Assembly: GCF_004795855.1 (NCBI RefSeq)
Contig: NZ_CP039252.1
Coordinates: 2,852,001 to 2,916,000 of the forward strand
Reading direction: 5' to 3'
Length of the DNA: 64,000 bases
DNA from: Hydrogenophaga sp. PAMC20947
GTDB lineage: Bacteria > Pseudomonadota > Gammaproteobacteria > Burkholderiales > Burkholderiaceae_C
Position numbers and translations under genes: made by a program
The notes under the pieces: generated by a model
What the model saw: only the letters and a program-made list of their open reading frames with translations
What the model was told of the DNA's origin: nothing
The model's database searches: none
In this document: positions 8,668 to 64,000 of the stretch, one piece after another
Numbering within the stretch: the stretch's first letter is position 1
Layout of the letters: each line of letters opens with the position of its first letter

Positions 8668-8683
8668 GCATGTTGACCCCACT

Positions 8684-9811: not shown

Positions 9812-9876
9812 GCACGCCAACGGCGCAACGCGCGCGCCCGTTTCTTTCCCCGTTTTTACTGATCCGAAAGCAATCC

Positions 9877-11197: not shown

Positions 11198-11216
11198 TCA
11201 AACTCCACTCGACATC

Positions 11217-12731: not shown

Positions 12732-12741
12732 GACGATGACT

Positions 12742-13203: not shown

Positions 13204-13254
13204 ACGCTGTCTCCATCTGAATGGCCTCAGGCACTCGCGCGCAGCGAAGCCTGC

Positions 13255-13271
13255 GCCTGACCGTGTCAGGC
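13255..13271 (-). promoter_or_regulatory. Intercistronic hairpin between tctC and tctB
   Basis: GCCTGAC (13255-13261) and GTCAGGC (13265-13271) form a perfect 7-bp stem with a 3-base loop in the untranslated gap between tctC and tctB. No U-run follows on the minus strand, so an RNA-stabilising or partial attenuation element is more likely than a terminator. This is inference from the fold. Confidence 0.4.
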
Positions 13272-13341
13272 ACCGAGCCTTGTTTACTCAAAAGAAGTCC
13301 ACAGGGCGCGGAGCCCGCCACCGTGTGCCTTCAACGCGCCA

Positions 13342-14322: not shown

Positions 14323-14347
14323 GGTTTGCTCCTGTGATGGCCTGCTT

Positions 14348-14836
14348 TTAAAGCTGGCTCTGGTTCCAATCCGGAGCGGCTGCTTCCGGTTCGCTTTTCA
14401 GTCCTGCGGCTTGAATGGCCGTGATGGCGCAGAACTCGTCCTTGTCCGAGGTGTCGCCGCTGATGCCCACCGCGCCCACCGCGAAGCCGCCGGCGTCCAG
14501 GATCAACACACCACCCGGAACCGGGATGAACTGGCCTTGGGCCGCTGCGGCCAAGGCGCTCTGAAATGCTGGACGTGCAGCGAGTCGGTCGCGGATCATC
14601 CGGGTCGACATGCCCATGCCCAAGGCGGCAGCGGCCTTGCCGCGGGCGATATCAAAACGCAACATGCCACAGCCGTCTTCGCGTTGAAAGGCCACGAGGT
14701 GCGCACCGACATCCAGGACGGCCACCGCCAGCGGTTGCATGTTGTGTGCACGGCCCGTGGCCAGCGCGGTTTCAATGATGGTGTTGGCCTGGCTCAGGGA
14801 AAGGCTGACTTGAAGAGGACACAAGGTTTCAGACAT
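14348..14836 (-). CDS. HbpS/GlcG-like (heme-binding family) protein
   Basis: 162 residues from the ATG at 14836. It has the GlcG/HbpS fold: LSLSQANTIIETAL, LAVAVLDVGAHLVAFQREDG, RGKAAAALGMGMSTR, FIPVPGGVLILDAGGFAVGAVGISGDTSDKDE (first half VPGGVLILDAGGF). Members are found beside oxidative catabolic genes and in heme sensing, but usually have no proven enzymatic role. No signal peptide is seen, so it is probably cytosolic. It lies between the FAH gene (68 nt upstream) and tctC (25 nt downstream) and is surely in the same operon. Confidence 0.85.
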   Translation of the reverse strand: MSETLCPLQVSLSLSQANTIIETALATGRAHNMQPLAVAVLDVGAHLVAFQREDGCGMLRFDIARGKAAAALGMGMSTRMIRDRLAARPAFQSALAAAAQGQFIPVPGGVLILDAGGFAVGAVGISGDTSDKDEFCAITAIQAAGLKSEPEAAAPDWNQSQL

Positions 14837-14904
14837 GCAGGAACTCCTGTCGGGGTGGGCTCGGGGACCGGTGGATGTGTGTAGGTTGCGCGGGCTGCGT
14901 GGGG

Positions 14905-15765
14905 TTACGCGACCACCTCGTTGGCCAGAATGCCGATGCCGTCGATCTCGATCTCGATGCGGTCGCCCGCCTTCATCCACACTGGCGGCGTGCGCGCATA
15001 ACCCACCCCACCCGGCGTGCCCATCACCACCACATCACCCGGCTCCAGGGTCAGCGACTCCGACAACAAGGCAATCGTGCGCGCAACGCCAAAGGCCATG
15101 TCGCCCGTGTTCGCGCTCTGCATCACCTGCCCGTTCAGGCGCGACTCGATGCGCACACCCGAGCAACCCGCTGGCAGCTCGTCGGGCGTGACCATGCAGG
15201 GACCAAAGGCGCCCGTGGCATCAAAGTTTTTGCCGATGGTCCACTGCGCCGTCTTGCGCTGGTAATCGCGCAGCGTGGCGTCGTTGAAGCAGGCGTAGGC
15301 AAAGACCGATTTCAAAGCGTCGTCTTGCGAGACAAAGCGCGTGCGCCGCCCGATCACCACAGCCAGCTCTGCCTCGAAATCCAGCTTGTCCGAGACCTTG
15401 GGCACTTGCAGCGGCGCGCCGTGGGCCAACAAGGAAGTGGCACAGCGCAGGAAGATGGAGGGGTAGTCGCCAATGGTGTTGCCACCTTCTTTGGCGTGGT
15501 CGATGTAGTTCACCCCCAGGCAGATCACCTTGCCCGGGCGGGGCACGCAGGGCAGCAGACTCACCTCGGCCAGCGGCAGCGATGTGGCCTGGGCCGCCCG
15601 CTGGGGCAGCTCAGCCAGCAGCGCGGGCCAGCCCGCTTCGTCGGCCAGCAAGGCCATCAGCGAGCGGGGCACATCAGCGCCCATCGCTTCGCTGGGCACC
15701 ACAGCCCCATCGCGCAATACGCCCCAGTTCGGGCCTTCGGGGGTTTCAAAACTGACCAGTCGCAT
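14905..15765 (-). CDS. Fumarylacetoacetate hydrolase family protein (copy 1)
   Basis: 286 residues. Typical FAH C-terminal fold: VICLGVNYIDHAKE, DFEAELAVVIGR (Glu/Glu metal ligands), FGPCMVTPDEL, MVFG-type VARTIALLSES and PGDVVVMGTPGGVG. The family hydrolyses or decarboxylates acylpyruvate-like products of aromatic ring cleavage using a divalent metal. It is the first gene of a leftward operon that continues into HbpS-like and tctCBA. A nearly identical copy lies exactly 10,176 nt away at 25081-25941. I see only two residue differences (E7D near the start, A/S in the last ten residues). Confidence 0.93.
   Translation of the reverse strand: MRLVSFETPEGPNWGVLRDGAVVPSEAMGADVPRSLMALLADEAGWPALLAELPQRAAQATSLPLAEVSLLPCVPRPGKVICLGVNYIDHAKEGGNTIGDYPSIFLRCATSLLAHGAPLQVPKVSDKLDFEAELAVVIGRRTRFVSQDDALKSVFAYACFNDATLRDYQRKTAQWTIGKNFDATGAFGPCMVTPDELPAGCSGVRIESRLNGQVMQSANTGDMAFGVARTIALLSESLTLEPGDVVVMGTPGGVGYARTPPVWMKAGDRIEIEIDGIGILANEVVA
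14905..15765. repeat. Gene-length direct repeat, left copy (right copy 25081-25941)
   Basis: The whole FAH-family coding region is repeated in the same orientation at an offset of 10,176 nt with only scattered single-base changes (for example aacgccaaag/cacgccaaag and ccgattt/ccgactt). Similarity ends almost exactly at the start and stop codons; flanking DNA differs. Such long direct repeats can recombine and delete or amplify the 10.2 kb between them. Confidence 0.93.
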
Positions 15766-15860
15766 CGCGGTTCCTTTGGCGGGGAAATAGGTAGGTGGAG
15801 ATGGCGCTCGGTGAACAGTGACAAAAAGCCCACAACACCCAGCGTTGTATTGGGAAGTGA

Positions 15861-15895
15861 GCTTAAACGATTATTTATGTTTTAATCGATTTAAG
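15861..15895. promoter_or_regulatory. Putative GntR operator in the FAH1 / rutE-like divergent promoter
   Basis: In an otherwise GC-rich region, an AT-rich inverted repeat has left arm TTAAACGATTA (15863-15873) and right arm TAATCGATTTAA (15883-15894). The first 16 bases after GC, TTAAACGATTATTTAT, are almost the same as those at 26038. The core TAATCGATTT resembles the perfect TAATCGATTA palindrome in front of the GntR gene. It lies 96 nt upstream of the FAH ATG and 28 nt upstream of the rutE-like ATG, so it could control both. Binding by the GntR protein is inference. Confidence 0.7.
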
Positions 15896-15922
15896 TCAGC
15901 TAACTTCGTTGGTATATACCCT

Positions 15923-16510
15923 ATGACAGAATTCAATCATTTAATCGAATCGCTTTTTGAAGAGGCCCGATCCCACGCCCACTGGCTGGCCGAACCCGTC
16001 AGCGAGACGCTGTTGCGCTCTTTGTACGAACGCGCCAAATGGGGCCCCACCTCCATGAACAGCCAACCCATGCGGCTCCAGTTTGTGGTGAGCCAGGCCG
16101 CCAAACAGAAACTGGTTGAATGCATCAACGTGCCCAACCGGCCCAAAGCCCTGGGAGCGCCTGTGACGGTGATCGTGGGGCAGGACCTGTCGTTTCCAGA
16201 AACCCTGGCCACCCAGTTCCCCCACAAGACCGACGCCTTGAGCTACTACGAGGGCAAGCCCGAACTGGTGGCGTCCACCGCCCTGCGCAACAGCAGCCTG
16301 CAAGGGGGTTACCTGATCATGGCCGCGCGGTCGCTGGGGCTGGACTGTGGTCCGATGTCGGGCTTCGACAACGCGGCGGTCGACCGGGCCTTCTGGGCAG
16401 GGACCACCGTAAAAACCAACTTCCTGTGCAATCTGGGCCACGGCGACCCGGCTTCGCTGCACCCGCGGGGTCCGCGTCTCTCTTTTGATCAGGTCTGCCG
16501 GTTCGTCTGA
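15923..16510 (+). CDS. RutE-like nitroreductase family protein (putative malonic semialdehyde reductase)
   Basis: 195 residues, matching the 196 of E. coli RutE. RutE-type motifs are AKWGPTSMNSQPMR (FMN-binding), GPMSGFDNAAVDRAFW and TNFLCNLGHGDP with PRLSFDQ. Known relatives are FMN-dependent reductases acting on malonic semialdehyde (3-hydroxypropionate formation) in uracil degradation. No other rut gene is visible, so the substrate may be different. It is read divergently from FAH copy 1, with a shared AT-rich operator between, and is followed by the GntR gene. Malonate-linked chemistry is notable because the mdc operon lies in the same island. Confidence 0.85.
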   Translation: MTEFNHLIESLFEEARSHAHWLAEPVSETLLRSLYERAKWGPTSMNSQPMRLQFVVSQAAKQKLVECINVPNRPKALGAPVTVIVGQDLSFPETLATQFPHKTDALSYYEGKPELVASTALRNSSLQGGYLIMAARSLGLDCGPMSGFDNAAVDRAFWAGTTVKTNFLCNLGHGDPASLHPRGPRLSFDQVCRFV

Positions 16511-16556
16511 CAGGCCCAGCCGCCCTACGAGGCTCGAAGGGCACTCCAAGGGCACA

Positions 16557-16567
16557 TAATCGATTAA
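16557..16567. promoter_or_regulatory. Putative auto-operator of the GntR gene
   Basis: TAATCGATTAA, containing the perfect 10-bp palindrome TAATCGATTA, ends 17 nt before the GntR start codon. The half-site (A/T)AATCG recurs in both FAH promoter elements. Its position over the expected promoter or leader suggests negative autoregulation, usual for FCD-type GntR regulators. Confidence 0.7.
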
Positions 16568-16584
16568 CAGATATCATCCGCACC

Positions 16585-17307
16585 ATGGCACGCAAAAACG
16601 CACTCACCGAAGTTTCTGCCCGTGGCGGCACCACGGCAACCCGCGCGAGCGCGGTGTACGAACAGCTGCGTTCTGACATTGCCCACGGTGTGCTCGAGCC
16701 GGGCAGCAAGCTGCGTGTTGAGGCCATGAGCACCCGGTACAACGTTGGGGCCAGCCCCATACGGGAAGCCCTCAGCCGTTTGTCTTCCGAAGGTCTGGTT
16801 AGCCGAACAGACCTGCGTGGATTCAGCGTGGCCGGCTTGAACTGGGATGAACTGCCCATCCTCACGCACAACCGCGTGCAGCTGGAAAGCATCGCGTTGA
16901 GTGAGTCCATCGAACACCGCGACCAGGCCATGGAGGACGAGCTGGTCTTGCTGGTCCACAAGCTATCGCGCACGCCCCGTTCGCTGTCCGAAGAGCAGTT
17001 CGTCACCAACCCGGCGTGGGAAGCTTTGCATTTCGAGTTTCACCGTGCCTTGTTGTCGCGATGCCCTTCGCGCTGGATGCGCTCCTTCTGCGACAGCCTC
17101 GCCGACGAAGCCTACCGGTTCCGCCAGGTGGCAGCCGGCAAGACCTTCAGCTCACGCAACGAACACGCGGAGCACCAGGCCATTTTTGAAGCGGTGATCG
17201 AAGGTCGAAAGGAAGAGGCGGTGCGCCTGTTGACCGATCACTACACGCGCACAACGACCGTGATCGAGTCACAGGTGAAGGAAAGCGCCGACGCTGCACC
17301 GGTCTGA
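16585..17307 (+). CDS. GntR family transcriptional regulator, FCD (FadR-type) subfamily
   Basis: 240 residues. The N-terminal winged helix contains VYEQLRSDIAHGVLEPGSKLRVEAM (first part VYEQLRSDIAHGVLEPG) and VGASPIREALSRLSSEGLV, the classical GntR signature. The FCD ligand domain follows with ESIALSESIEHRD, FHRALLSRC, and EHQAIFEAVIEGRKEEA, including the His residues that bind a metal in many FCD proteins. Ligands in the family are organic acids. It sits centrally between the two operons that share its likely operator. MdcY, the repressor of malonate decarboxylase genes in Acinetobacter, is also an FCD-GntR protein, which makes control of the mdc operon plausible. Confidence 0.92.
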   Translation: MARKNALTEVSARGGTTATRASAVYEQLRSDIAHGVLEPGSKLRVEAMSTRYNVGASPIREALSRLSSEGLVSRTDLRGFSVAGLNWDELPILTHNRVQLESIALSESIEHRDQAMEDELVLLVHKLSRTPRSLSEEQFVTNPAWEALHFEFHRALLSRCPSRWMRSFCDSLADEAYRFRQVAAGKTFSSRNEHAEHQAIFEAVIEGRKEEAVRLLTDHYTRTTTVIESQVKESADAAPV

Positions 17308-17384
17308 CCCGGCCGTACTGCGCTCCCGCCCTTCACGGGAATGACAGGGCCGCCCGCCGGGCAGACCTTGTTAATCACCCCGAA

Positions 17385-18014
17385 TCAGGCGCCGTCCACT
17401 GCGGCCAGCAGCGGCGGCAAGGCAGGGTCAAACTGCCCGTCGATCAAGACAAACAGGATGCGGCAGGGTTTGCCAGACCGGTTGGCCCAGGCGTGGTTGG
17501 TGCCCCGCTCCACGGCGAAATCGCCGGTGCGCATCAGCACCTCTTCCTGGTCCAGAACCAGCGTGATTTCGCCTTCCAGAATCAGGCAATAGTCAACGGT
17601 TTGCGTCCGGTGGATCAGCGGATGTTTGGCCTTGCCGGTGCGGTTGGTCGAAGCCGCATCGGTGCCAAATGCACCCCATGCCTCTCGCGTGCCTGCGGCA
17701 TCGAGCTTCTCCAGCCACTCGCCTTCCGGGCCAAATTCGACGATGCGCACCACCGTGCCGCTCTTCGGCGGCTCCAGCTTGATGGAGCGGCTGGTCGTGG
17801 GGTCAACATCGTTGCCTACAAAGGCTGGCATCTCCTGGGTCATCCAGAGCTCGGTGGCGCAAAAACCCACCCGGCGGGGGTTGGTTCTCACCACCGGCGC
17901 GGCGCCGTCTTCGCTCACGATGGACCGCCCCTGGCTGTCGTGCCCGGTGACGATGCGTCGAACCACCCCCTGACCAGCGGGAACTGGGGACTTCTGTGCA
18001 GAAACTTCGCTCAT
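17385..18014 (-). CDS. Cupin-domain protein
   Basis: 209 residues from the ATG at 18014, which overlaps the Bug gene stop by 4 nt. A single cupin barrel occupies the C-terminal half: HRTQTVDYCLILEGEITLVLD and MRTGDFAVERGTNHAWANRS, with HPLIHRT supplying further possible metal ligands. Small cupins of this type in catabolic operons are often dioxygenases, isomerases or lack known activity; the substrate is unknown. It is the last gene of the ten-gene operon that starts with FAH copy 2 and is convergent with the GntR gene. Confidence 0.85.
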   Translation of the reverse strand: MSEVSAQKSPVPAGQGVVRRIVTGHDSQGRSIVSEDGAAPVVRTNPRRVGFCATELWMTQEMPAFVGNDVDPTTSRSIKLEPPKSGTVVRIVEFGPEGEWLEKLDAAGTREAWGAFGTDAASTNRTGKAKHPLIHRTQTVDYCLILEGEITLVLDQEEVLMRTGDFAVERGTNHAWANRSGKPCRILFVLIDGQFDPALPPLLAAVDGA

Positions 18015-18988
18015 TGCGGGGACACTCCAGTCTGTTTGATGATGCCACCCCATTTGGTGACTTCCTTGCCGAGGTAGCTGCCGAATTCGGCCGATGAACC
18101 TGCTTTGGCATCCAGCCCAGCGGCGGCCAGTCGTTCGCGGTACTGCGGTTTGGCCAAAGCTTCATTCACGATGCCGTTGATGCGCGTGGCAATGTCAGCC
18201 GGTAACTTGGCGGGGCCAAACAGACCCACCCAGGTGTAGTCCTCAAAGCCCGGGAACCCGGACTCGGCGACGGTGGGCACATCCGGCAACGAAGGGTTGC
18301 GCTTCAGGCTGGTGACGGCCAGGCCTTTGACCATGCCGCTGCGCACCAGCGGAATCGCCGGCGGCAAGGCCACGCTGGCGACCTGCACCTGGTTGGCGGC
18401 GGTAGCCTGCAGGGCCGGGGCGGCGCCCTGGTACGGAATGTGGGTGGCGTCCAGCCCGCCCAGCACCCGCAACACGTTGTCGCCGGTCAGGTGGGGCGTG
18501 CTGCCGATGCCGGCTGAGCCATAGGACACGCTCTTGCCTTTGTACAGTTGCAGAAACGCCTTCAGGTTGGGGGCCGGCTCGCTGGAATGGGCCACCAGGA
18601 TGTTGGGGCTGTCGGCGATCAGACTCACGGGCGTGAAATCCTGAAGCACATTGAACCCCGGATCTTTGTAGAGCGTCTGGTTGACCGCGATCGAACTCGT
18701 GGTCACCAGCAGGGTGTAGCCATCGGCCGCATCCTTGGCGACAAGACGCGCCGCGATGTTGCCCCCTGCCCCGCCCTTGTTTTCGACCACCACCTGCTGA
18801 CCCAGTTTCTCTTGCAGCGCCTGGGCGACGATGCGTCCAGCGATGTCGGCCGGGCCGCCTGGCGCAAACGCCACGACGATGCGGATCGGTTTGGTGGGCC
18901 AAGTCTGTGCCTGAACCATGGGGGCCTGCAATGCCGTGCCGAGCACGAACACACCGCCTAAAGCCTGCACTATGCGTCTGCGTTTCAT
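18011..18988 (-). CDS. Bug/TctC family periplasmic solute-binding protein (orphan)
   Basis: 325 residues from the ATG at 18988. Signal peptide RRRIVQALGGVFVLGTALQA ends near QAQT. Bug motifs: WPTKPIRIVVAFAPGGPAD, VVENKGGAGGNIA, YGSAGIGSTPHL, IPYQGAAPALQ and LPDVPTVAESGFPGFE. No tctA or tctB lies near, so it may serve the TctAB pair at 11.2-13.2 kb, work with another carrier, or act as a sensor as some Bug proteins do. It is co-transcribed with the cupin (4-nt overlap) and the MBL protein. Confidence 0.92.
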   Translation of the reverse strand: MKRRRIVQALGGVFVLGTALQAPMVQAQTWPTKPIRIVVAFAPGGPADIAGRIVAQALQEKLGQQVVVENKGGAGGNIAARLVAKDAADGYTLLVTTSSIAVNQTLYKDPGFNVLQDFTPVSLIADSPNILVAHSSEPAPNLKAFLQLYKGKSVSYGSAGIGSTPHLTGDNVLRVLGGLDATHIPYQGAAPALQATAANQVQVASVALPPAIPLVRSGMVKGLAVTSLKRNPSLPDVPTVAESGFPGFEDYTWVGLFGPAKLPADIATRINGIVNEALAKPQYRERLAAAGLDAKAGSSAEFGSYLGKEVTKWGGIIKQTGVSPQ

Positions 18989-54326: not shown

Positions 54327-55134
54327 GTGATCCCTCCAGACGCCACTGCGTGATTCGCAGACGTGGAAAGTTCTGCAGTCAGTTTGCCTGCTGATTGCCT
54401 CGGTAACGGCCATGCGGGGTAGATCACGGCGTCGACCGTGATGACGTGGACCGGCGCCGTGCCGATGGACCCAACGGGGCTTTGGGCCAAGCCTGCCCAC
54501 GACACCAGTGACCGTGTCAATGCAGTGGTTCTGTTCAACATTTCAAGCCCCCAAGGCGCTGGTACAAACGCGCCGCCTGCACGGGCGGGTTCGAAGCCTC
54601 GAGCCGATCGCGGTCGGCCGGCGTGGCAGCCAGCGCCAGACCAGGTAGCCCGGCATCAGCCGCTCAAGCAAAGGCACAGGGCGCAGGGCACAAATGCTGT
54701 CGCCATGGGAACGCCGCCGATCGAGTCCACACCGACCCTGACCCTGTCGGGCTGCGAGCAACAGCAGTTCGGCACACGGCCCCAACAAGTCCGTCTCGCC
54801 CAGGCGTTCTCACTTTCGTGTGCTCCGTGCCTTGCACGTGAATCCTCGTTCATCCAGCGGCAAGGGTTTCACGCCGTCGTCAAGGTCTGACACCGAGCTC
54901 GGGCAGTGTCGGTGTCGCAAGCCCTCCCGAAAGCACAACCGCAAACGGGGGCTTCTCCGCCAAACCGAAGAACGGTTCGCAGATCGATCCCGCTCCGTCG
55001 GCGCAAACGAAAAGCGCTTCGCTGTGAGCACCCATTGCCCCCGGAAAACCGGGGAAAAACACCTGGCATGGGTTGTGCAATGAAAGGTCCAGGCGGCGCG
55101 CAAATGACGTGCTTCCCCGCTGATGGAGAGCTTG
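54327..55134. other. Gene-free interval of about 800 nt before the wall-targeting cassette
   Basis: No frame here has a convincing start, motif or normal coding composition on either strand. Two features stand out: a perfect hairpin ATCACGG/CCGTGAT (54423-54442) with a 6-base loop, about 100 nt past fadE, which has no T-run, and CCCCGG-AAAA-CCGGGG (55039-55054) about 80 nt before the first cassette gene. The interval probably contains the promoter of the cassette. It could also hold a decayed gene, but I could not identify one. Confidence 0.45.
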
Positions 55135-55692
55135 ATGAAACACAGTCTTCTCGACCACCGTCCGGTCATCGATGCCTTGGAGGGCCCGCAGCGACTGCCG
55201 TTGCGGCTCGCAAGCCCCGCAGTTGGCAACGAAATGTGGATCGCCACCGAGTTGCTCGAGCACGCCGAGGAAGGCGAGCTGGAGTCCTACCTGACCCAGC
55301 TCGTTGCACGCATCAGCGGACGCCATAGGGCCGCCGATGTGGACACCGCCCTGGCTCGAATCCTGACCCGGGTCGGTCGACCCATGTTGCAACAGCGCAG
55401 CACATTGACCAGGGCCTCATCGGGTCGGGCTTTTGGCATCGAACTCGAAGGCTTGAGTCCCGAAGACCAGGCGTTCGAACTTGCACGCCACTTCGCACGC
55501 TTTGCCACCGACGCCGCGCACCGTGCAGGCCGAGCCCATGGTCCGGCTTCTGCGCAACAGGTGGCGCAGCGTGCGGCGGGCGAAGCGGCGCGGCGTTTCG
55601 CGCCGGGTCTCGCCCCTGTCAGAACGGGCAATCGACCGCTCATGAACCCATTTTTTCGCCGAGGGCGCTCCATCGACGCCCTCAATCCGTAG
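55135..55692 (+). CDS. Small cassette protein A, paralogue with shared C-terminal domain
   Basis: 185 residues from the ATG at 55135, chosen because GGAGAG lies 4-5 nt before it. ATELLEHAEEGELESYLTQL (38-57) lines up with the same segment in proteins B and C. The C-terminal domain (residues 99-160) has AFGIELEGLSPEDQAFELAR, FARFATDAAH and QRAAGEAARRFAPGLAP, and aligns with the 127-187 region of B and 167-226 of C. It lacks the acidic aromatic leader and glycine-zipper core seen in those proteins, having instead a basic stretch. No known domain is recognised. First gene of the cassette. Confidence 0.75.
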   Translation: MKHSLLDHRPVIDALEGPQRLPLRLASPAVGNEMWIATELLEHAEEGELESYLTQLVARISGRHRAADVDTALARILTRVGRPMLQQRSTLTRASSGRAFGIELEGLSPEDQAFELARHFARFATDAAHRAGRAHGPASAQQVAQRAAGEAARRFAPGLAPVRTGNRPLMNPFFRRGRSIDALNP

Positions 55693-55716
55693 TACCTGCC
55701 ACCCAAGGAGTCTGTC

Positions 55717-56373
55717 ATGCATGACATTGATCGCAACCAATTGGAATTCGAAGACGAATCATCCTTTGACGAAGCCGACGAGTTCGAGTCAGACGAGTCG
55801 GAATGGTCTGGCGAGTATGAAAACGATCTCACCGAAGCCGACGAGTACGAGCTGGCCAACGAGCTGCTCAGTGTCGACAGCGAGGAGGAACTCGATCAGT
55901 TTCTCGGCAAGCTCATCAAACGGGTGTCCAAAGGCGCGCGCCGCTTGATCCGGTCTCCCATTGGCCGGGCTGTCGGCGGCGTGCTCAAGGGCGTGGCCAA
56001 AAAGGCCTTGCCCTTTGGCGGCCGCGCACTGGGCGGCATGGTGGGTGGACCGCTCGGCGCCAAGATTGGCAGCGGCGTGGCGTCTGCCGCCGGTCGAGCG
56101 CTGGGCCTGGAATCCGAAATGGAACAGGAAGAACAGGAGTTCGAGGGCGCCAAACAGTTTGTGCGCCTCGCCGCAGACACGGTGAAGAAAGCCGCCGCCG
56201 CCTCCCCTGGTGCCGACCCGCGCGCGGTGGCACAGTCAGCCGCCATCAGCGCCGCACGCAAGCTCGCACCTGGCCTGGTCAAGCAGGCCGGTAGCATGGC
56301 AACTTCGGCCAGCAGTGGTCAAAGTGGGCGATGGGCGCGGCAGGGCAACAAGATCGTGCTCTACGGAGCCTGA
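55717..56373 (+). CDS. Small cassette protein B, acidic leader plus glycine-zipper segment
   Basis: 218 residues, ATG 6 nt after AAGGAG. Residues 1-46 are extremely acidic with regularly spaced aromatics (FEDESSFDEADEFESDE, WSGEY). ANELLSVDSEEELDQFLG (47-64) is followed by a cationic helix (KLIKRVSKGARRLIR) and a Gly/Ala-rich segment (83-130: VGGVLKGVAKKALPFGGR, ALGGMVGGPLGAKIGSGVAS) with GxxxG spacing. The shared C-terminal domain ends in SGRWARQGNKIVLYG. Composition resembles leader-plus-core membrane-active peptides, but no GG cleavage site or immunity gene was identified. Function unknown. Confidence 0.82.
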   Translation: MHDIDRNQLEFEDESSFDEADEFESDESEWSGEYENDLTEADEYELANELLSVDSEEELDQFLGKLIKRVSKGARRLIRSPIGRAVGGVLKGVAKKALPFGGRALGGMVGGPLGAKIGSGVASAAGRALGLESEMEQEEQEFEGAKQFVRLAADTVKKAAAASPGADPRAVAQSAAISAARKLAPGLVKQAGSMATSASSGQSGRWARQGNKIVLYGA

Positions 56374-56387
56374 GGGGGCGGCGCACC

Positions 56388-57677
56388 ATGACACCGTTCG
56401 CTGCCTGGATCCTGGCCCAAGAGGCGCGTGCCTTGATGACGCGGCTTGCGCGCGTGCAGCCCTTTGCGCTGCTCGAGCCGATGGTGCCGGCCGCCGCCTT
56501 GATGCCCCGCGCACAAGTTGCGATCGAGCGCCACCTGGCGCTAGGCCGCCGCGACCTCGAACGCATGGTGCAAGGCTTCCTGGCTTGGTTGCGCGGTGCC
56601 GGGCGTTCGGGCAGTGCCGCGCAGGCCCAAAGACGGTTCACCCACCTGCGCCTGCAATTCAATGCGGCGCTGACGCAATTCGATTTGTTCAGCGACGTGA
56701 TCACCCAGCGCAGCGAGCACGCCTCGGGGGTTTGGTTGTCGGGGCTTGATGTGGTGGCCGCAGACGCGCTAACGCTGCCTGGACGCTACTTCGATCTACC
56801 GCCCATCATCTGCTACCTCGACCGCGGTGCAGGTGCAGCGATTCGCCGCGCACGCACCCGTTTGCCAGGCGGTGGAGAGAACCCGGTGGCCGTGATCCGC
56901 GTGCCGCGCGAACGCATGGTCGGCAGTGGCATCGCTTCGTCGCTGGTGCACGAAGTGGGGCATCAAGCCTCGGCGCTGCTGGACCTGGTGGCCTCACTTC
57001 GCCCTGTGTTGAGAGGCATGCAAGCGGTTGACGGCCCTGACCGCAGTGCCTGGATGCTTTGGGAACGCTGGATTTCCGAGATCGTGGCCGATTTCTGGGC
57101 CATCGCCCGGGTTGGCATTGCTTCGACCCTGGGCTTGATTGCGGTGGTCAGCCTGCCGCGCGCTTTCGTGTTTCGAATGGAGTCCCAGGACCCGCATCCA
57201 GCCCCATGGATTCGCGTGATGCTGAGCTGCGCCATCGGACAGGCGCTGTACCCGCATCCGCAGTGGGCGCGTTTTGCCGCGCTGTGGGAAGCGTTCTACC
57301 CTCCACAGGGCCTGGAAGCTGCGCGCGCGCAGTTGCTGATGCGCTTGCGCGCCACCATGCCGGCGTTTGTAGCGCTGCTGGTGCAGCACCGCCCGCGCTC
57401 GCTGCACGGTCGCCGCCTGGTCGATGTGCTCGCCACCGAAGAGCGCCAACCGCTGCACTTGGCGCGGCTGTACCGCGCCTGGTGCGAAACACCCGCGGCC
57501 ATGTACCGCGCCGCGCCGTCGCTGGTGTTCGCCGTCATTGGCCAGGCGCGTGCCAACGGGCGCATGAGCCCCGAACTTGAGAGCGAGCTGCTGGCGCGCC
57601 TGCTGACCCATTGGGCACTCGAAAGCTCGCTGAAAGGCGCAGCGCAATGCGCAAACGTATCTTCCATTTCCGGTTGA
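56388..57677 (+). CDS. Cassette protein D, predicted zinc metalloprotein (HEVGH)
   Basis: 429 residues from the ATG at 56388, 14 nt after protein B. LVHEVGHQASALLDLV contains an HExxH zinc motif (H188, H192), and SEIVADFWAIARV (E231, D235) gives the downstream Glu expected of gluzincin-type metallopeptidases. An N-terminal basic helical region of about 110 residues precedes it. No signal peptide or membrane helix is seen. I do not recognise the family. It might process the leader of protein B or C, but that is inference. Confidence 0.75.
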   Translation: MTPFAAWILAQEARALMTRLARVQPFALLEPMVPAAALMPRAQVAIERHLALGRRDLERMVQGFLAWLRGAGRSGSAAQAQRRFTHLRLQFNAALTQFDLFSDVITQRSEHASGVWLSGLDVVAADALTLPGRYFDLPPIICYLDRGAGAAIRRARTRLPGGGENPVAVIRVPRERMVGSGIASSLVHEVGHQASALLDLVASLRPVLRGMQAVDGPDRSAWMLWERWISEIVADFWAIARVGIASTLGLIAVVSLPRAFVFRMESQDPHPAPWIRVMLSCAIGQALYPHPQWARFAALWEAFYPPQGLEAARAQLLMRLRATMPAFVALLVQHRPRSLHGRRLVDVLATEERQPLHLARLYRAWCETPAAMYRAAPSLVFAVIGQARANGRMSPELESELLARLLTHWALESSLKGAAQCANVSSISG

Positions 57678-57702
57678 TTTGATGTTCACCAAGGAGAGCA
57701 AC

Positions 57703-59832
57703 ATGATTGTCAAGACCACTGATTCAAAAAACACCCGCAAGGGTTCGATCGCTGTCACCGTGGCTGACGCCGGTGGCGAGGGAGCCCCCATGAGCGGCGC
57801 CTGGGTGAGCCTCTACGCCACAGCCGTTGGCAGTGGCGGTGGCGGTGAAAGCAAGGCGGCGGCCAAAGTCAAGACATGGACACCGGACGAAGCACTGTGG
57901 TTGTCCAGCGAGCGAACGGATGGTGGGGGGCGGGTCCGCTTCACCGAGCTCGATCCCGCAACATACTTCGTGAAGTACGAACACCACCCAGAGACCAGCG
58001 CACAGTGTGTGCATGTCGAGGCGGGTTGCGAAGAGTCGCTGTGCTTGCGCCTGCCCCTGAATGCGCGTCTGGAGGTCGTTTTCATGAATCCCGACTGCCA
58101 GGAAATCGCCTGCCCACACCCCAGGGTCGGTGACCATGCTTGCGCAACGCTGGAGTTCAATGACTCCAACGTACTGACAGAGCACCTGAGCGTGCAGTGG
58201 GGGCCGGGTATGCGGCCCGTTCGAAAAGAGAAACTGGTCGCTACGAAGCCGATCAAGAGCACCGGGGATCAGAAGGTCCAGGCGGCCATAGGTTTCTCGC
58301 TGGTGGGCCCCTTGCCCGGGGGACAAGCCGGCGGCCAGATGGCCGAGATGGCCTTTGAGGAAGCGTACGAAGCAGACGATCGCGGGCCTTCGCCCATCAA
58401 CGGAAGCCTGAACGTCTCATTGGCGCGCTCCGAGTCGGCGCCCACGCCAGACCTGCAACTGTGGGGGGCGATACGCGCAAGCACCGAAGCACTGTCGTTC
58501 GACAATTACATGCGCTTCATGGACCGGCTTTTCTGCTCCGACGGCCCGTCCAAACCAACCCAGGCCGAAACGAAAGCCAAAAACACCTATACGAACTTGT
58601 TGGGAAAGCGCTACCTGCCCTTCTCCGACACCGACGCCTACCGCGTGCTCAAGGTGGCGACCGAGGCCTTCGTGATGGTCAACTGCGGCGTGTTCACCGA
58701 CTTCGCCAACGGGGAGGGGCACGCCCAGCTGCTGGGCATCAACAATGACGACCTGCGTCGGCGCGACTTGCCCAACCTGGGTCCCGAGCCATACCTTGAG
58801 AACGTCGATGGCATCAACATGCTGCCCTACCTGGCCATCATCAAGAGCAAGCTGCCCGAAGTGTCCTTCAACAAGGCCCCCAGCAGCTTTGGGCGCCCCA
58901 GCAATGCCGAAATGGATCTGTGCGATGTTTTCGTGCAGGAGAAACTGAGCAACCCTTGCCTGCTCGAACTGATCTGGTCTTACTGGCACGAAGAAGGCAT
59001 GCAGGTGCAGACGATGAACGCCATCACCCGGCGCTTTCAGAACGTGCGCGGCACACGCCAACCCGACCCGCTCGTGAACGTGGAAGTCAATCCCTTGCGC
59101 CCGTTGAACAACCTGCTGTGGGGCTACATTCAGGACGAACAACACCGCTTGACCGTGGCGCGACGCAACGGCGAGTACGACCACCACTACGGCTTGCGAC
59201 TGGAGGGGCGCGCGGTGCAAGACTTCCGGCCCGCCGATTCGCGTTCGAAGTTCATCGAGGCCTTCCACCACCTGTTGCGCCTGTGCACCGTGTTCTACAA
59301 GCAGGACGACAACACCACCATGAAGGCCGATGCTTTCGGGGTGCTCAATGCACTGAAAGAGGTGCACCTGATCCTGTCGCAAGGGGCGCACAGCCAGTTC
59401 GGGGACATGCCACCGACCGCACGCATCGAGATGCTGATCCAGCAATGGTTGCTCTCGCGCGCCGAGTTCCGGGAGTTCCTGCCGACGCGGGTGATGGTGG
59501 CCTACCCCGAGCCCTGGATGGACCGGGTCGATGCCATGAAAAAACTGCAGGGCTGGACCGACACCAGCGTGGTGCACTTTCACAACCTGGCCGTCTTTGG
59601 CGAACAGCTGCTGCTGTCGATTCGCTACGGCGCCTGGAGCACGGTCTATGAGCCCAACCACGCCTTCAACTTTGCACGTTTCTGGCGGCCGCAGGTACAG
59701 GGTTATATCCATGCCTACCGTGCCGCCACAGGCGCCGAACTGGGTGGCGAGACGGTGGAGACGCGGGTCGACTCGACCATACCTTCGGTGTTGCTGAAAC
59801 AGCGAATGGAGGCGCAGCGGCGGAGTGCCTGA
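57703..59832 (+). CDS. Cassette protein E, 709-residue protein with N-terminal Ig-like domain
   Basis: ATG at 57703 has AAGGAG 6 nt upstream, so this start is preferred to 57679. Residues 14-120 look like a carboxypeptidase-regulatory/prealbumin-type beta sandwich (GSIAVTVADAGG, SGAWVSLYAT, TDGGGRVRFTELDPATYFVK). Seven or more cysteines occur in the first 170 residues (C102, C109, C114, C132, C137). The rest, about 550 residues, is soluble and rich in aromatic and charged residues (PYLAIIKSKLPEVSFN, LLWGYIQDEQHRLTVARRNG, YDHHYGLRLEGRAVQDF) with no family I can name. It lies in the middle of the cassette, between D and F. Confidence 0.8.
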   Translation: MIVKTTDSKNTRKGSIAVTVADAGGEGAPMSGAWVSLYATAVGSGGGGESKAAAKVKTWTPDEALWLSSERTDGGGRVRFTELDPATYFVKYEHHPETSAQCVHVEAGCEESLCLRLPLNARLEVVFMNPDCQEIACPHPRVGDHACATLEFNDSNVLTEHLSVQWGPGMRPVRKEKLVATKPIKSTGDQKVQAAIGFSLVGPLPGGQAGGQMAEMAFEEAYEADDRGPSPINGSLNVSLARSESAPTPDLQLWGAIRASTEALSFDNYMRFMDRLFCSDGPSKPTQAETKAKNTYTNLLGKRYLPFSDTDAYRVLKVATEAFVMVNCGVFTDFANGEGHAQLLGINNDDLRRRDLPNLGPEPYLENVDGINMLPYLAIIKSKLPEVSFNKAPSSFGRPSNAEMDLCDVFVQEKLSNPCLLELIWSYWHEEGMQVQTMNAITRRFQNVRGTRQPDPLVNVEVNPLRPLNNLLWGYIQDEQHRLTVARRNGEYDHHYGLRLEGRAVQDFRPADSRSKFIEAFHHLLRLCTVFYKQDDNTTMKADAFGVLNALKEVHLILSQGAHSQFGDMPPTARIEMLIQQWLLSRAEFREFLPTRVMVAYPEPWMDRVDAMKKLQGWTDTSVVHFHNLAVFGEQLLLSIRYGAWSTVYEPNHAFNFARFWRPQVQGYIHAYRAATGAELGGETVETRVDSTIPSVLLKQRMEAQRRSA

Positions 59833-59844
59833 CGTGAAACCACC

Positions 59845-60918
59845 ATGCTTGATTTCACCTCGTCGCTCTACCTGGGTCTGCACCATGGCAGCACAACACT
59901 CGATCCGTGGGACTCGCTCAGCCTCGGGCGTCCAGCGGCGCTGGACGAGGCTCCCGAAGCGAGAGTCGCTGCCCATGAACTGGCCCGGCTGGTGGGTTGC
60001 GCCGATGGCACGCTGTTGCCATCGACCTTCCACCTCTTTTGGGACCTGCTCGGTGTGCTGAGCCGAGAACAGATCGAGATTTTCATGGACGCTTCGACCT
60101 ACCCGATTGCCCGCTGGGGTGCCGAGCACTGGGCCACCAAGGGCGTGCCGCTGCACACCTTTGCGCGCCACGACCCAAAATCCCTGGAGCGCTTGATGGC
60201 ACGCCGGCATGGCTGCCGACCCGTGGTGCTCTGCGATGGCATGAGCCCCGGCAGCAACAGCCAGCCACCGTTGGCGGCCTACGCCGGCCTGGCAAATTCA
60301 CAGGGTGGCTGGCTGGTGATCGACGACACCCAGGCTCTGGGTGTCTATGGACAGCGGCCTTCAGCGGGCGCTCCTTACGGGGTTGGAGGCGGCGGCTCGC
60401 TGCTGCAGCAAGGGTTGGCTGGCCATCACATGGTGGTGGGGGCCTCGCTCGCCAAGGGCTTTGGTGTGCCAGTGGCCTTGCTCGCTGGCAGCGCTGTGCT
60501 GTTGCGGCGCTTCTTGCGCAACAGCGCAAGCCGCGAACACATGAGTCCGCCCTCACTGCCGGTTGTCCTGGCCGCACGGCAGGCGTTGGTGGTGAACGCC
60601 CACCATGGCGAACACCTGCGTTTGCGGCTGTGGCGCGCCGTGCGGCGGCTGCGCAGCGGTCTGGCTGCGCTGGGCATCGCCACCCGCGGCGGCGACTTCC
60701 CAGTGCAGACGCTGATCACCCCGCCAGGCGCTGTTGTGCCACTGCTGCACACCCTTCTGTTGCACGCCGGCGTTCGCACCGTGCTGCACCGCGATAGCGG
60801 TGGCGGTAGCGGCGCGCAATTGAGCTTTCTGCTTCGCGCCGATCACAGCGCGGCACATATCGACCAGGCGGTGATGCGATTGGCACACGCGTGGAACACA
60901 GCCCTGGAGCCGGCGTGA
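59845..60918 (+). CDS. Cassette protein F, BioF/alpha-oxoamine-synthase-like PLP enzyme
   Basis: 357 residues. It aligns by eye with 8-amino-7-oxononanoate synthase (BioF): FTSSLYLGLHH for the nYLGL start, VVLCDGMSPGSNSQPPLAAY, GGWLVIDDTQALGVYG (Asp contacting the PLP ring), and GASLAKGFGVPVALLAG with the Schiff-base Lys at K204. MSPPS matches the TSMPP region after it. Alpha-oxoamine synthases condense an amino acid with an acyl-CoA; here the substrate is unknown. A BioF paralogue in a peptidoglycan/peptide cassette is unusual. It lies 12 nt past protein E. Confidence 0.82.
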   Translation: MLDFTSSLYLGLHHGSTTLDPWDSLSLGRPAALDEAPEARVAAHELARLVGCADGTLLPSTFHLFWDLLGVLSREQIEIFMDASTYPIARWGAEHWATKGVPLHTFARHDPKSLERLMARRHGCRPVVLCDGMSPGSNSQPPLAAYAGLANSQGGWLVIDDTQALGVYGQRPSAGAPYGVGGGGSLLQQGLAGHHMVVGASLAKGFGVPVALLAGSAVLLRRFLRNSASREHMSPPSLPVVLAARQALVVNAHHGEHLRLRLWRAVRRLRSGLAALGIATRGGDFPVQTLITPPGAVVPLLHTLLLHAGVRTVLHRDSGGGSGAQLSFLLRADHSAAHIDQAVMRLAHAWNTALEPA

Positions 60919-60975
60919 AAACACCGCGTTCAAGCTGGCGCACCTTCGTTTCAACCTTTTCACCAGGAGAACACC

Positions 60976-61719
60976 ATGCACAAGATGACCTGCCAATGCC
61001 CCCAGTGCAACGCCAGCACCCGGGCCGAGTTCGAAACCTTCTCTTTTGACCTATCGCCTCAAAGTGAATTTGAGGAAGAAGACGAAGCCGCAGACGAGGC
61101 TTCAAACCCCTTTGGTCAGCAATACCAAGGGGAATATGAAAGCGAGTTTGAAGGCGAATACGAATACGAAGACGAAGGCGCGGCCAGCTTTGGTTCGCGC
61201 GATGCCGAGAGCCCGTTCAGCGAGGACGAAGAGGCCGAGTTGGCGATGGAGCTGCTCTCGGTGTCCAGCGACGCAGAGCTGGACGAGTTCTTGGGCAAGA
61301 TGTTCAAGAAGATCGGCAGGGGCCTCAAGAAAATCGCGCGGCCACTGGGTGGCGCGCTCAAGGGTTTGGCAAAGAAGGCGCTGCCATTTGTGGGCGGTGC
61401 GCTGGGTTCGTTCATTCCCATCCCCGGCGTCGGTACCGCCGTGGGCACCGCGTTGGGCAGCGCGGTGGGCAATGCACTCGAAGCCGAGTTCGGTGAACTC
61501 GATGCCGACGAACAAGAGTTTGAGATGGCGCGCAGGTTCGTCCGAATCGCGGGCACTGCCGCGCAGCAGGCCGCGGCCGCCGGGGCGTCTACCGACCCCA
61601 GGCGTGCAGTGCAGGCGGCCGTCGCCCATGCCGCGCGTCGGCATGTGCCGGGCCTGGATCGAGGGGGCCGGAGCGGGCGGTGGGTCCGACGTGGCAACAC
61701 GATCGTCGTCGGTCTCTAA
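60976..61719 (+). CDS. Small cassette protein C, acidic leader plus glycine-zipper segment
   Basis: 247 residues; AGGAGA lies upstream of the ATG. It is the paralogue of protein B. The start has a Cys cluster (CQCPQC, residues 6-11), then a leader with acidic and aromatic residues (FETFSFD; GEYESEFEGEYEYEDEG). AMELLSVSSDAELDEFLGKM (90-109) is followed by a cationic helix and a Gly-rich core (LKGLAKKALPFVGGALG; IPIPGVGTAVGTALGSAVG, residues 128-165). The common C-terminal domain (residues 167-226) ends with SGRWVRRGNTIVVG, near-identical to B. The stop is 19 nt before the next gene. Confidence 0.82.
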   Translation: MHKMTCQCPQCNASTRAEFETFSFDLSPQSEFEEEDEAADEASNPFGQQYQGEYESEFEGEYEYEDEGAASFGSRDAESPFSEDEEAELAMELLSVSSDAELDEFLGKMFKKIGRGLKKIARPLGGALKGLAKKALPFVGGALGSFIPIPGVGTAVGTALGSAVGNALEAEFGELDADEQEFEMARRFVRIAGTAAQQAAAAGASTDPRRAVQAAVAHAARRHVPGLDRGGRSGRWVRRGNTIVVGL

Positions 61720-61738
61720 CCGCCCAGGGAGAACTTTC

Positions 61739-62495
61739 ATGAACCACGCTGTTTTTGAGTTTCTGCCGTTCGAGCCCGGGGGCGAATACCCACCCGAAGC
61801 CGAATCCTCTGCCTGGGAAACCGAGAAACGCCGAGGCCGCGGTGCTTCGCGCAGTGGTTCAAAGCCGCGGCGCAACGCTTCGCGTTTTTCGTCAAAGGCC
61901 ATGGTGCGGTCAACAGCACGCTCGAGGCCGAGACCACCGAGCCGGAACACGCAGCGGCCTCGGTCCCGCCTGGGTGCACCGGCAGCGCCCTGCGTGTGCC
62001 CGGCCCACGGCACGGAGTACGTGCGCTGGGTGCAAAGTGCGCTGAACCAGGTGGCGTCGACCAACCTGACGGTCACCGGTGTGATGACCGCGACCACGCG
62101 CAACGCCTTGCGCCGCTTCCAAAGCAGCAAGGGCTTGCCGGTTGATGGCATCGCCGGGCCAGACGTTGAACAGGCGCTGCGCGATGCGCGCCAGCCGGCC
62201 GACAGCGGGCCGCCAACCGAGGCGCTGGCGTCAGACCAGGGCGAGGTCTACGAATTTGAAACACTGGCGCTTGAAACGCCCACCAGCAGGCCAACACTGC
62301 GCCTTGGCTCGCGCGGTTCGGCGGTGGCCGATCTGCAGCGCAGGTTGGGGGCCGCCGGGTTCAGCGCGGGCGCAGCCGATGGCATCTTCGGCGCCAACAC
62401 CGGTGCGGCCGTGCATGCCTTTCAACGCGCGCGGGGGCTGGGGGCGGATGGCGTTGCCGGGTCCATGACCTGGGGCGCCTTGCTCGGCGGAATGC
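61739..62495. repeat. Tandem gene duplication, first copy (second copy 63189-63957)
   Basis: The leader, basic linker and both PG-binding domains are repeated 1450 nt downstream at high identity; the offset becomes 1462 nt after a 12-nt (4-codon) insertion before the second PG-binding domain. After about 62495 the copies diverge, so the M74 domain of the first copy is not seen within the second copy inside the window. Confidence 0.85.
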
Positions 62496-63070
62496 CGAGC
62501 GGTCCAGCCGTTCCAAGCGGCGCCGGGGCACGCTTTGGCCCCGTCCCCGAGGTGAACACGTTGCTCCCAAAAACCGGTGCCGGATTTGTCGGCGTGAAGA
62601 GTGAGAGCCGACGATTCGGTTTGTCCGAAACCATCGAGGCACTGAAACAGGTCGGGCAACGTTGGCAATCTCGCTATCCATCCGGGCCGCTGGTTCAGAT
62701 ATCAGATATCGGCAAGCAAGGCGGTGGAGCGCTCAAGCCGCACAGCTCTCACAGAATGGGAATTGATGTCGACATTCGATTCATCCGGAACGATGGAAAT
62801 CTCGGTTCTGTCAACCCGTTGATACGTTCAGAAGCGCCATTTTTCGACCGTGCGCGCACACAAGATCTTGTCAATATCATCCGGGCCAATGGCGTACTGA
62901 AAGTCCACAAACTCTGGGTGAACCAGCGCATAGGCCTGAGCGGAATCGATGGCGACAACATTCACAACAACCACATGCACGTGCGGTTTTGCGTTCCGTC
63001 CCGTCTCAACCTCAGCCAGACGAAGAAGGCTGCAAAAATTTCAGCCAAAGGCACCTATTCAAGTTGTTGA
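61739..63070 (+). CDS. Cassette protein H: double peptidoglycan-binding protein with M74 (MepA-like) endopeptidase domain
   Basis: 443 residues from the ATG at 61739 (GGGAGA upstream); the frame is open further upstream but that part overlaps protein C. The leader FEFLPFEPGGEYPPEAESSA is followed by a basic Arg/Ser/Pro region (29-78), a PG_binding_1 domain (92-150: YVRWVQSALNQV, LPVDGIAGPDVEQAL), the linker EVYEFETLALE, a second PG_binding_1 (186-250) and a C-terminal M74 domain (275-420). KPHSSHRMGIDVDI (H338, D345) and NNHMHVRF (H414) match the MepA zinc ligands. It is predicted to cleave murein cross-bridges. No classical signal peptide was found. Confidence 0.87.
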   Translation: MNHAVFEFLPFEPGGEYPPEAESSAWETEKRRGRGASRSGSKPRRNASRFSSKAMVRSTARSRPRPPSRNTQRPRSRLGAPAAPCVCPAHGTEYVRWVQSALNQVASTNLTVTGVMTATTRNALRRFQSSKGLPVDGIAGPDVEQALRDARQPADSGPPTEALASDQGEVYEFETLALETPTSRPTLRLGSRGSAVADLQRRLGAAGFSAGAADGIFGANTGAAVHAFQRARGLGADGVAGSMTWGALLGGMPSGPAVPSGAGARFGPVPEVNTLLPKTGAGFVGVKSESRRFGLSETIEALKQVGQRWQSRYPSGPLVQISDIGKQGGGALKPHSSHRMGIDVDIRFIRNDGNLGSVNPLIRSEAPFFDRARTQDLVNIIRANGVLKVHKLWVNQRIGLSGIDGDNIHNNHMHVRFCVPSRLNLSQTKKAAKISAKGTYSSC

Positions 63071-63188
63071 TGAAGTGGCCGTCGTCACCAACTTGCGGGC
63101 CTGACACCCCTCGCGCCATCCGGGGCACCAACGCCGTCGGAGGCCAGTGATCTACCCAACGCTATCAACAGCACACCGGAGAGACATC

Positions 63189-63957
63189 ATGAACCACGCT
63201 GAATTCGAACTTGTGCCCTTCGCGCCTGACATCGGGTACGAATACGAAGAGGAAGGCGACACCTGGGAAACGGAGCGGCAGCGTGGCCGCGCCGCACCAC
63301 GGGGGCGTTCGACGCCTTCGCGTGGCACCTCGCGCAATGCGCCAAAGGCCGGTTCGCGATCGGCGGCACGGTCGAAGCCGAGGCCGCCGAGCCGGAACGC
63401 GCGGCGACCTCGGTCACGCTTGGGCGCGCCCGCAGCGCCCTGCGTGTGTCCGGCCCACGGCACTGAATACGTGCGCTGGGTGCAAAGCGCGCTGAACCAG
63501 GTGGCGCAGGCGAGCCTGCCAGTCACCGGTGTGATGACCGCGACCACGCGCAATGCCTTGCGCCGGTTCCAACGCAGCAAGGGGTTGCCGGTTGATGGCA
63601 TCGCAGGGCCAGACGTTGAACAAGCGCTGCGCGATGCGCGCCAGCCGGCCGACAACGGGGCGCCAACCGATGAGCCGGCGCCGGATCAAGGCGAGGTTTT
63701 TGAATTTGAAACGCTGGAGCTTGAGGCGCCCACCAGCATGGCCACCGCCAGGCCAACGCTGCGCCGAGGGTCGCGCGGATCGGCCGTGGCCGATCTGCAG
63801 CGCCGCTTGGGGGTGACCGGGTTCAGCGCAGGCCCGGCCGACGGCATCTTTGGTTCCAACACCGATGCCGCAGTCCGTGCCTTCCAGCGCGCGCGGGGTC
63901 TTGGCGTGGACGGCATCGTTGGTTCAAACACCTGGGGCGCCTTGTTGGGCAGAGCGC
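63189..63957. repeat. Tandem gene duplication, second copy (first copy 61739-62495)
   Basis: See first copy. The frame is maintained through the repeat, with substitutions mostly at third positions (for example GTGTGCCCGGCC/GTGTGTCCGGCC), so both copies appear to be under selection as proteins. Confidence 0.85.
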
Positions 63958-64000
63958 CCAGCAGGCCGCCAAGCCCGGGCGGTGGTGGTTCATCGACGGC
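63189..64000 (+). CDS. Cassette protein I: double peptidoglycan-binding protein (3' end outside window)
   Basis: 270 codons are visible and the frame is still open at the end. MNHAEFELVPFAPDIGYEYE matches the start of protein H, including the acidic aromatic leader and the following basic region (RGRGAAPRGRSTP). Two PG_binding_1 domains follow at the same spacing, with the linker EVFEFETLELE. The C-terminal domain (after about residue 260) is cut off; it begins RPPSPGGGGSS. It could carry a different catalytic domain. ATG 63189 is preceded by GAGA. Confidence 0.85.
   Translation, partial: MNHAEFELVPFAPDIGYEYEEEGDTWETERQRGRAAPRGRSTPSRGTSRNAPKAGSRSAARSKPRPPSRNARRPRSRLGAPAAPCVCPAHGTEYVRWVQSALNQVAQASLPVTGVMTATTRNALRRFQRSKGLPVDGIAGPDVEQALRDARQPADNGAPTDEPAPDQGEVFEFETLELEAPTSMATARPTLRRGSRGSAVADLQRRLGVTGFSAGPADGIFGSNTDAAVRAFQRARGLGVDGIVGSNTWGALLGRAPSRPPSPGGGGSST

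Follow-up and report, generated by a model that had tools for sequence, protein, structure and literature searches.

A conserved cassette with a predicted sigma-54 promoter couples leader-bearing wall hydrolases to a predicted zinc-peptidase core in Hydrogenophaga sp. PAMC20947 and other bacteria

In a 64,000-nucleotide stretch of the genome of Hydrogenophaga sp. PAMC20947 (the window; bases 2852001-2916000 of a complete, single-contig genome of 4.85 Mb), we identified a gene cassette that couples peptidoglycan (PG)-binding wall hydrolases to a conserved core of proteins. The sequence around and beyond the window end was also examined (40 kb), and all coordinates are window positions. The cassette is a real unit and is larger than the window showed. 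Its gene set and order, the common leader of its cargo proteins, the variability of the cargo, the promoter type, the zinc-peptidase motif and the patchy distribution are established at the level of sequence. We give about an even chance to the interpretation that the cassette is a sigma-54-controlled accessory operon, in which leader-tagged cargo proteins, mostly wall-binding hydrolases, are accompanied by a conserved handling core, resembling polymorphic toxins with a delivery route of their own. The full order is A, B, HEX, IG709, BIOF, C, two wall peptidases (cargo 1 and cargo 2), a leader-only open reading frame (ORF) and AMH, followed by the convergent S54; A, B and C belong to one family, termed Z.

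55064..55079, + strand: candidate sigma-54 (-24/-12) promoter TGGCATGGGTTGTGCA, 10/12 consensus positions, about 55 bases upstream of A
55135..55692, + strand: A, Z-family protein without acidic leader or glycine-rich hairpin
55717..56373, + strand: B, Z-family protein with MHDIDR start, acidic leader, glycine-rich hairpin and C-terminal GRWxRxG motif
56388..57677, + strand: HEX, predicted zinc peptidase (HExxH protein); H188, E189, H192, E231 and D235 invariant in 48 aligned sequences
57703..59832, + strand: IG709, CnaB-type Ig domains and a conserved helical region of about 470 residues without known family
59845..60918, + strand: BIOF, divergent protein of the BioF/AOS (alpha-oxoamine synthase) type, DDTQ and SLAK motifs retained
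60976..61719, + strand: C, Z-family protein with MHxxxCxCxxC start, acidic leader, glycine-rich hairpin and C-terminal GRWxRxG motif
61739..63070, + strand: cargo 1, leader FEFLPF, two PG_binding_1 domains and an M74-like endopeptidase (SSHRMGIDVD ... HMHV)
63189..64496, + strand, past the window end: cargo 2 (PG2), leader FELVPF, two PG_binding_1 domains and an M15/VanY-like domain (SVHGTGRALD ... HVHV)
64537-64848 (L002:11538-11849), beyond the window: leader-only ORF of about 100 codons
64863-65639, beyond the window: AMH, amidohydrolase
65587-66948, beyond the window, convergent and facing AMH: S54, sigma-54 activator

A conserved gene unit

We assembled 81 loci with IG709 (80 retrieved and our own), of which 59 have full context. 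All six core families are present in 51 of these 59 loci, and gene order and strand are identical in all 51. In a survey of 369 genomes of the class, which was not anchored on our locus, the strong carriers of HEX, IG709 and Z were the same four genomes. The loci are spread over records of six phyla, outside Pseudomonadota mainly metagenome-assembled genomes (MAGs), and carriers include Nitrosomonas, Nitrospira, Accumulibacter, Janthinobacterium/Massilia, rhizobial plasmids and others. HEX occurs in five of the 369 genomes of the class and in one of 67 genomes of the genus, which is our own. An earlier reading of the window from its sequence alone (the sequence-only reading) had treated the genes as one unit and had staked this claim on their co-occurrence in other genomes. 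The genes do co-occur there, and the claim is strongly supported. The mixture of enzyme types could suggest unrelated neighbours assembled by chance, but this explanation is contradicted by the conservation of order, the coinciding strong carriers and the spread over six phyla; we rejected it as scarcely credible.

The same reading had listed eight tightly spaced genes, from A to cargo 2. All eight are present, the first seven starting with ATG and separated by gaps of 12-57 bases, while cargo 2 starts 118 bases past the seventh gene. Following the sequence past 64 kb, a check proposed in that reading, revealed that the cassette continues with the remainder of PG2 to 64496, the leader-only ORF, AMH and the convergent S54. 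The G+C content of the cassette up to 63070 is 63.6%, compared with 63.5% for the window. Beyond S54, inspection by eye showed ABC transporter genes and a small protein that resembles a ribosome hibernation factor. An empty insertion site could not be demonstrated, because the flanks lie megabases apart in G377, the sole close relative holding both.

We also rejected a phage origin. HEX had no match in 50,697 phage records, and none of nine pattern stretches in viral contigs was confirmed as HEX, the other core proteins not having been searched in either set. Among PHROGs, our own cargo matched mainly endolysin-type families, and C gave weak matches (E 1e-4).

Cargo proteins and their leader

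The genes between BIOF and AMH differ by locus and represent exchangeable cargo. We collected 103 ORFs of at least 150 amino acids (aa) from this region, grouped them into 65 clusters and scanned 40 clusters against Pfam with one ORF each. The domains above the Pfam cut-offs included PG_binding_1, M74, Amidase_2, Muramidase, Trypsin_2, papain C1, NlpC/P60, OmpA, Beta-lactamase2 and M20. Many cargo proteins share a short leader, which we defined strictly as FE-x(1-3)-P-[FL] lying no more than 32 residues from a Met that is itself in the first half of the ORF. The strict leader was found in 39 of the 103 cargo-region ORFs and in none of 558 flanking ORFs, and a looser version in 44 (two of them plainly spurious) and 10, respectively; these counts treat related loci separately, compare two ORF sets chosen by different rules, and include spurious ORFs among the 103. 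A constant N-terminal region combined with variable C-terminal domains, as in polymorphic toxins, is thus found here, with the leader absent or degenerate in the remainder. The sequence-only reading had assigned one acidic aromatic leader to B, C and the PG-binding proteins. Acidic segments are present on B and C, where they are long, whereas the cargo has the separate short leader, making two distinct things of what had been taken as one.

Cargo 1 and cargo 2 are 76% identical over the first about 250 residues, covering the leader and two PG-binding domains, and their catalytic parts differ. Cargo 1 matched PF03411 (M74) with 42.6 bits against a gathering threshold of 25 bits, over model positions 15-89 of 240, and it has the His/Asp motifs that we take to be metal ligands. 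For the catalytic part of cargo 2, Pfam gave only Extensin-like_C, at 21.7 bits against a cut-off of 25.4 bits; its SxHxxGxxxD...HxH motif is presumably that of M15/VanY enzymes, and we retain the name M15/VanY-like. The eighth gene had been read as a tandem copy of the seventh. This description fits the first about 250 residues but not the catalytic part, which is M74-like in the seventh and M15/VanY-like in the eighth. No hydrophobic signal peptide is evident at the N-terminus of either protein, as judged by inspection without a predictor. Our genome holds no third copy of the PG-binding cargo. The leader-only ORF starts with a cargo leader (MKELEFEFVPF), followed by no domain evident by eye. 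It looks like what is left of a third cargo gene and would be consistent with cargo turnover.

Other loci add individual variants. A PG-binding cargo protein from an Acidobacteria MAG (L079:14211-15716) bears a Beta-lactamase2-type C-terminal domain. In several loci of Nitrospira and Nitrosomonas, a gene for an M20-family peptidase precedes AMH; the one at L059:7182-8639, from a cluster of seven ORFs, was assigned by Pfam match. Since L095 has a similar gene, the peptidase may be an optional part of the core. In a Massilia locus, a protein consisting of many HHPSLA repeats is encoded between AMH and S54 (L007:15371-15946).

A predicted sigma-54 promoter

Upstream of the first Z gene, 31 of 69 loci have a -24/-12 site that agrees with the consensus at 11 or more of 12 positions, compared with 0.4 expected from dinucleotide shuffles; a site with at least 10 occurs in 47 of 69, compared with 2.9 expected. 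After removal of close relatives, sites of at least 11 were found in 15 of 37 loci versus 0.17% of 1718 other windows from the same loci, and sites of at least 10 in 25 of 37 loci versus 4.6% of the 1718 control windows. Our own site, matching 10 of 12 positions, is not significant alone (8 such sites in the window on both strands). S54 matched PF00158 with 193.6 bits and contains the GAFTGA loop; among 63 aligned members, G, A, T, G and A of the loop are conserved in at least 97% and F in at least 80%. We infer that S54 acts on the cassette promoter.

Sigma-54 control would, from general knowledge, suit a starvation-type programme. The operon might accordingly serve self-directed lysis or wall remodelling under a sigma-54 signal, such as cyst or aggregate formation or altruistic lysis releasing matrix or products, with the core keeping the hydrolases inactive until Z opens the membrane. 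In favour of this role, the two cargo proteins of our cassette are wall peptidases lacking an evident hydrophobic signal peptide, and neither an immunity gene nor, within the operon, a secretion apparatus was recognised. However, the cargo varies by lineage, with trypsin and papain domains as well as sub-threshold nuclease matches, which fits conflict better than housekeeping, and the patchy distribution of HEX is unlike that of a core developmental programme. We consider a developmental or self-lysis role rather unlikely.

Paralogous Z proteins

The paralogy of A, B and C, claimed in the sequence-only reading, was borne out. B and C share 46% identity over 183 aa (E 1e-38), A and B 33% (E 6e-10), and A and C 24% (E 3e-4). 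Profiles were built separately for A, B and C, and all three settled on one and the same set of 189 ORFs, located in 76 of the 81 loci; the types that recur are A-type, B-type and C-type. An MHDIDR-like B-type motif is present in 60 of the 189 ORFs and an MHxxxCxCxxC-like C-type motif in 31. The GRWxRxG-like C-terminal motif occurs in 137 of them and, in 119 of the 137, ends exactly 8 residues ahead of the stop. In our own B and C, the acidic leader (net charge -19 over the first 80 residues) is combined with the glycine-rich hydrophobic hairpin, and glycine-zipper matches were sub-threshold. C has 1581 relatives at E 0.001 among 8000 scored candidates. No solved relative of Z was found by sequence in the Protein Data Bank (PDB) at E up to 1.

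A single ORF scores against the PG-cargo profiles (297-350 bits) as well as the Z profile (203-250 bits) in each of eight loci, seven of which are titled Nitrosomonas. In addition, a PG-binding cargo protein of locus L050 bears a C-type leader. The fusions and this leader tie cargo and Z together. Cargo and Z on a single polypeptide would also suit a colicin-like weapon, in which Z is the lysis or pore component, a fraction of the cells bursts to free the cargo, and HEX and IG709 only process or hold it. The hydrophobic hairpin in Z, cargo without evident signal peptide and the lack of a recognised channel point the same way. Yet the core exceeds, in size and conservation, the bacteriocin lysis modules known to us, and the lack of a recognised immunity gene also speaks against such a weapon, which we judge improbable.

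HEX, IG709, BIOF and AMH

Among the ten proteins of our cassette, Pfam matches above the cut-offs were limited to PG_binding_1, Peptidase_M74, Amidohydro_2, the sigma-54 domain with overlapping AAA models, and a marginal PG_binding_3 in cargo 2. A, B, C, HEX and IG709 reached no family cut-off in Pfam and NCBIfam scans.

HEX had been read as an HEVGH metalloprotein. HEVGH is indeed present, and the invariance of the five residues listed above extends to two sequences at 21 and 25% identity. HExxH is combined with a downstream Glu ligand in an ExxAD-like context, which we take to be a gluzincin arrangement. HEX differs from M48-type gluzincins such as BepA in having neither a Pfam match nor a PDB sequence match at E up to 1, and its structure-alignment Z-scores lie in the unspecific range of the tool. 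Among the VIA-align matches listed, the neighbours are led by helical bundles aligning with residues 1-111, which we read as unspecific.

The Ig-like start proposed for the 709-residue protein was recovered. Residues 10-230 of IG709 are mostly predicted with confidence as beta-sandwich, similar to CnaB-type pilin domains (8bdw, template modelling score 0.73 to the target), and profile scans gave a sub-threshold Ig-like match. Against solved structures by sequence (E up to 1), five weak Ig-like or pilin-type rows were obtained together with one antibody row at chance level. The last about 470 residues are the conserved part and are mostly helical in a low-confidence model. Among 8000 scored candidates, 3065 relatives were found at E 0.001 or better. 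Several of them (e.g., P0013, P0054, P0080) are named "8-amino-7-oxononanoate synthase" in public records, apparently wrongly; no such domain was matched in our own protein.

BIOF was proposed to be a BioF-like pyridoxal phosphate (PLP) enzyme, which holds for its motifs. As in the BioF/CqsA-type alpha-oxoamine synthases, DDTQ and SLAK are retained, and DDTQ and the K of SLAK are conserved in at least 97% of 71 aligned members; we take both to be PLP-site motifs. The protein is nevertheless divergent, scoring at most 46 bits against the group of BioF, serine palmitoyltransferase and CqsA, where cut-offs are at least 338. It falls below the cut-offs of all nine NCBIfam models listed and has no Pfam match. 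BIOF and AMH might make a small molecule or a modification, which is a guess.

Distant relatives

A distant relative of the cassette with a HEX homologue was found in L091 (G301; 3895-11530, minus strand). By eye, this locus also encodes a Z-like hydrophobic 777-aa protein with an acidic leader and no Z profile match, and an M23-like wall peptidase with an acidic leader. A neighbouring 375-aa protein has 1724 relatives at E 0.001, including Streptomyces, Nitrosococcus and a Hodarchaeota MAG. Its homology to the helical region of IG709 was not significant (hhalign E 0.16 and 0.18), and in the same test the Z-like protein gave a weak result (E 0.014, probability 3%). Solved structures searched by sequence with the 375-aa family at E up to 1 yielded one row, E 0.6.

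L095, on a plasmid of Paraburkholderia sp. PGU19, carries in a row (9487-18949) two Z-like proteins, a diverged HEX, proteins of 658 and 392 aa, an M20-like peptidase and AMH. AMH was assigned by profile match; the Z-like proteins, with acidic leaders and no Z profile match, and the M20-like peptidase were assigned by eye. A beta-lactamase match predicted in PLSDB in this record spans 102 bases (1549-1650), far too short for a gene. If these relationships are true, the HEX-homologue loci L091 and L095 would make the cassette one branch of a wider superfamily.

Discussion

The export and the target of the cargo are inferred. In the interpretation as a polymorphic-toxin-like accessory operon, the FExxPF leader would mark cargo for the core of HEX, IG709, BIOF and AMH. 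HEX, as a predicted zinc peptidase, may trim or release cargo or Z, and the Z proteins, with their hydrophobic glycine-rich hairpin and fixed C-terminal motif, might carry or insert cargo at the membrane. The cargo would then breach the walls of other bacteria, with a nuclease or protease perhaps following in some lineages. A bolder and less probable version is a new class of protein-delivery system present in several phyla. The FExxPF leader would address a core of the zinc peptidase and a CnaB/helical scaffold, the Z hairpins would carry cargo out and into neighbouring cells, and the PLP enzyme and the amidohydrolase would make or attach a small-molecule part for crossing.

Several observations weigh against the interpretation as a leader-guided, toxin-like operon. 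The strict leader is present in only 35 of the 81 loci and is missing from 64 of the 103 cargo-region ORFs, some of them spurious, and its motif was defined after viewing the same sequences. The GIY-YIG (6/40) and HNH (1/40) matches are all just below the Pfam cut-offs, 10 of the 40 scanned cargo-region ORFs have no Pfam match, and some cargo, such as the M20 peptidase and the OmpA-like proteins, is not obviously toxic. Some loci lack BIOF or AMH, which are without an explained role. Two weak single matches (HEX in G301 and Z in G265) break the exact co-occurrence among the 369 genomes. No immunity gene was recognised in our own cassette, and Pfam revealed no export channel in the operon, the other secretion systems of the genome not having been searched. 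A wider search for immunity genes by clustering neighbouring ORFs yielded mostly antisense artefacts and spurious ORFs. The antibacterial function suggested in the sequence-only reading finds support in the variable cargo of wall hydrolases, proteases and sub-threshold nuclease matches, many behind a common leader, but no immunity gene, channel or target was identified for it.

None of the systems tested here matches the conserved core to which the operon couples its wall hydrolases. Among the matches listed, nearly all of the 3065, 1581 and 1724 relatives of IG709, C and the 375-aa protein of L091 are without a Pfam family or functional name. If the cargo is delivered, the cassette would represent a new antagonism or export route in the carrier lineages named above. 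Direct tests could start from the zinc site, the sigma-54 activator or the short leader.

Comparison with known systems

No recognisable description of the cassette was found in the open-access literature searched by title and abstract start, a scope that omits most subscription journals and all preprints; the earlier statement that no named system has this composition agrees with this result. Anti-phage defence was rejected as well: at E 0.01, PADLOC matched only S54 (RtcR models and mad8, via the activator domain) and, weakly, B (LeoBC, E 0.004), with no core match.

The type VI secretion system (T6SS) delivers wall hydrolases and nucleases without signal peptides. In contrast to that system, TssK (PF05936) is absent from our complete genome and from three of eight carriers in all, being present in five, and no T6SS domain was found in our ten proteins. 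Baseplate_J (PF04865) is absent from our genome and from seven of the eight carriers in all, being present in one. Delivery by a T6SS or by the contractile tail of an extracellular contractile injection system (eCIS) is therefore unlikely in our genome and was rejected, and the cargo needs another route or release by lysis. Among the eCIS toxins linked to DUF4157, 68 predicted ones are reported to bear peptidoglycan-binding domains (PMC11297309). Our cargo resembles these toxins in its PG-binding domains and the lack of an evident signal peptide; it differs in the missing Baseplate_J and in having no DUF4157 match in the ten proteins.

Polymorphic toxin systems, as described by Zhang et al. 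(2012; PMC3482391), include toxins delivered by Photorhabdus virulence cassettes (PVC), which are marked by a zincin domain and have no adjacent immunity genes. In our cassette, the zincin stands alone as a protein of its own with no Pfam match, and neither an immunity gene nor a known trafficking domain was recognised. Trafficking domains of type II, V, VI and VII secretion systems, PVC and TcdB/TcaC were not found above the Pfam cut-offs in the ten own proteins and the 40 cargo-region ORFs, a PT-VENN match in L071 falling just below (19.9 versus 20.3 bits). The two kinds of system share a constant N-terminal part followed by exchangeable C-terminal peptidase, nuclease or wall-hydrolase domains. 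Because T6SS and eCIS each fail in a defining feature here and the core belongs to no family, we rate the system as new in kind, with cargo that is itself of a known toxin-like kind.

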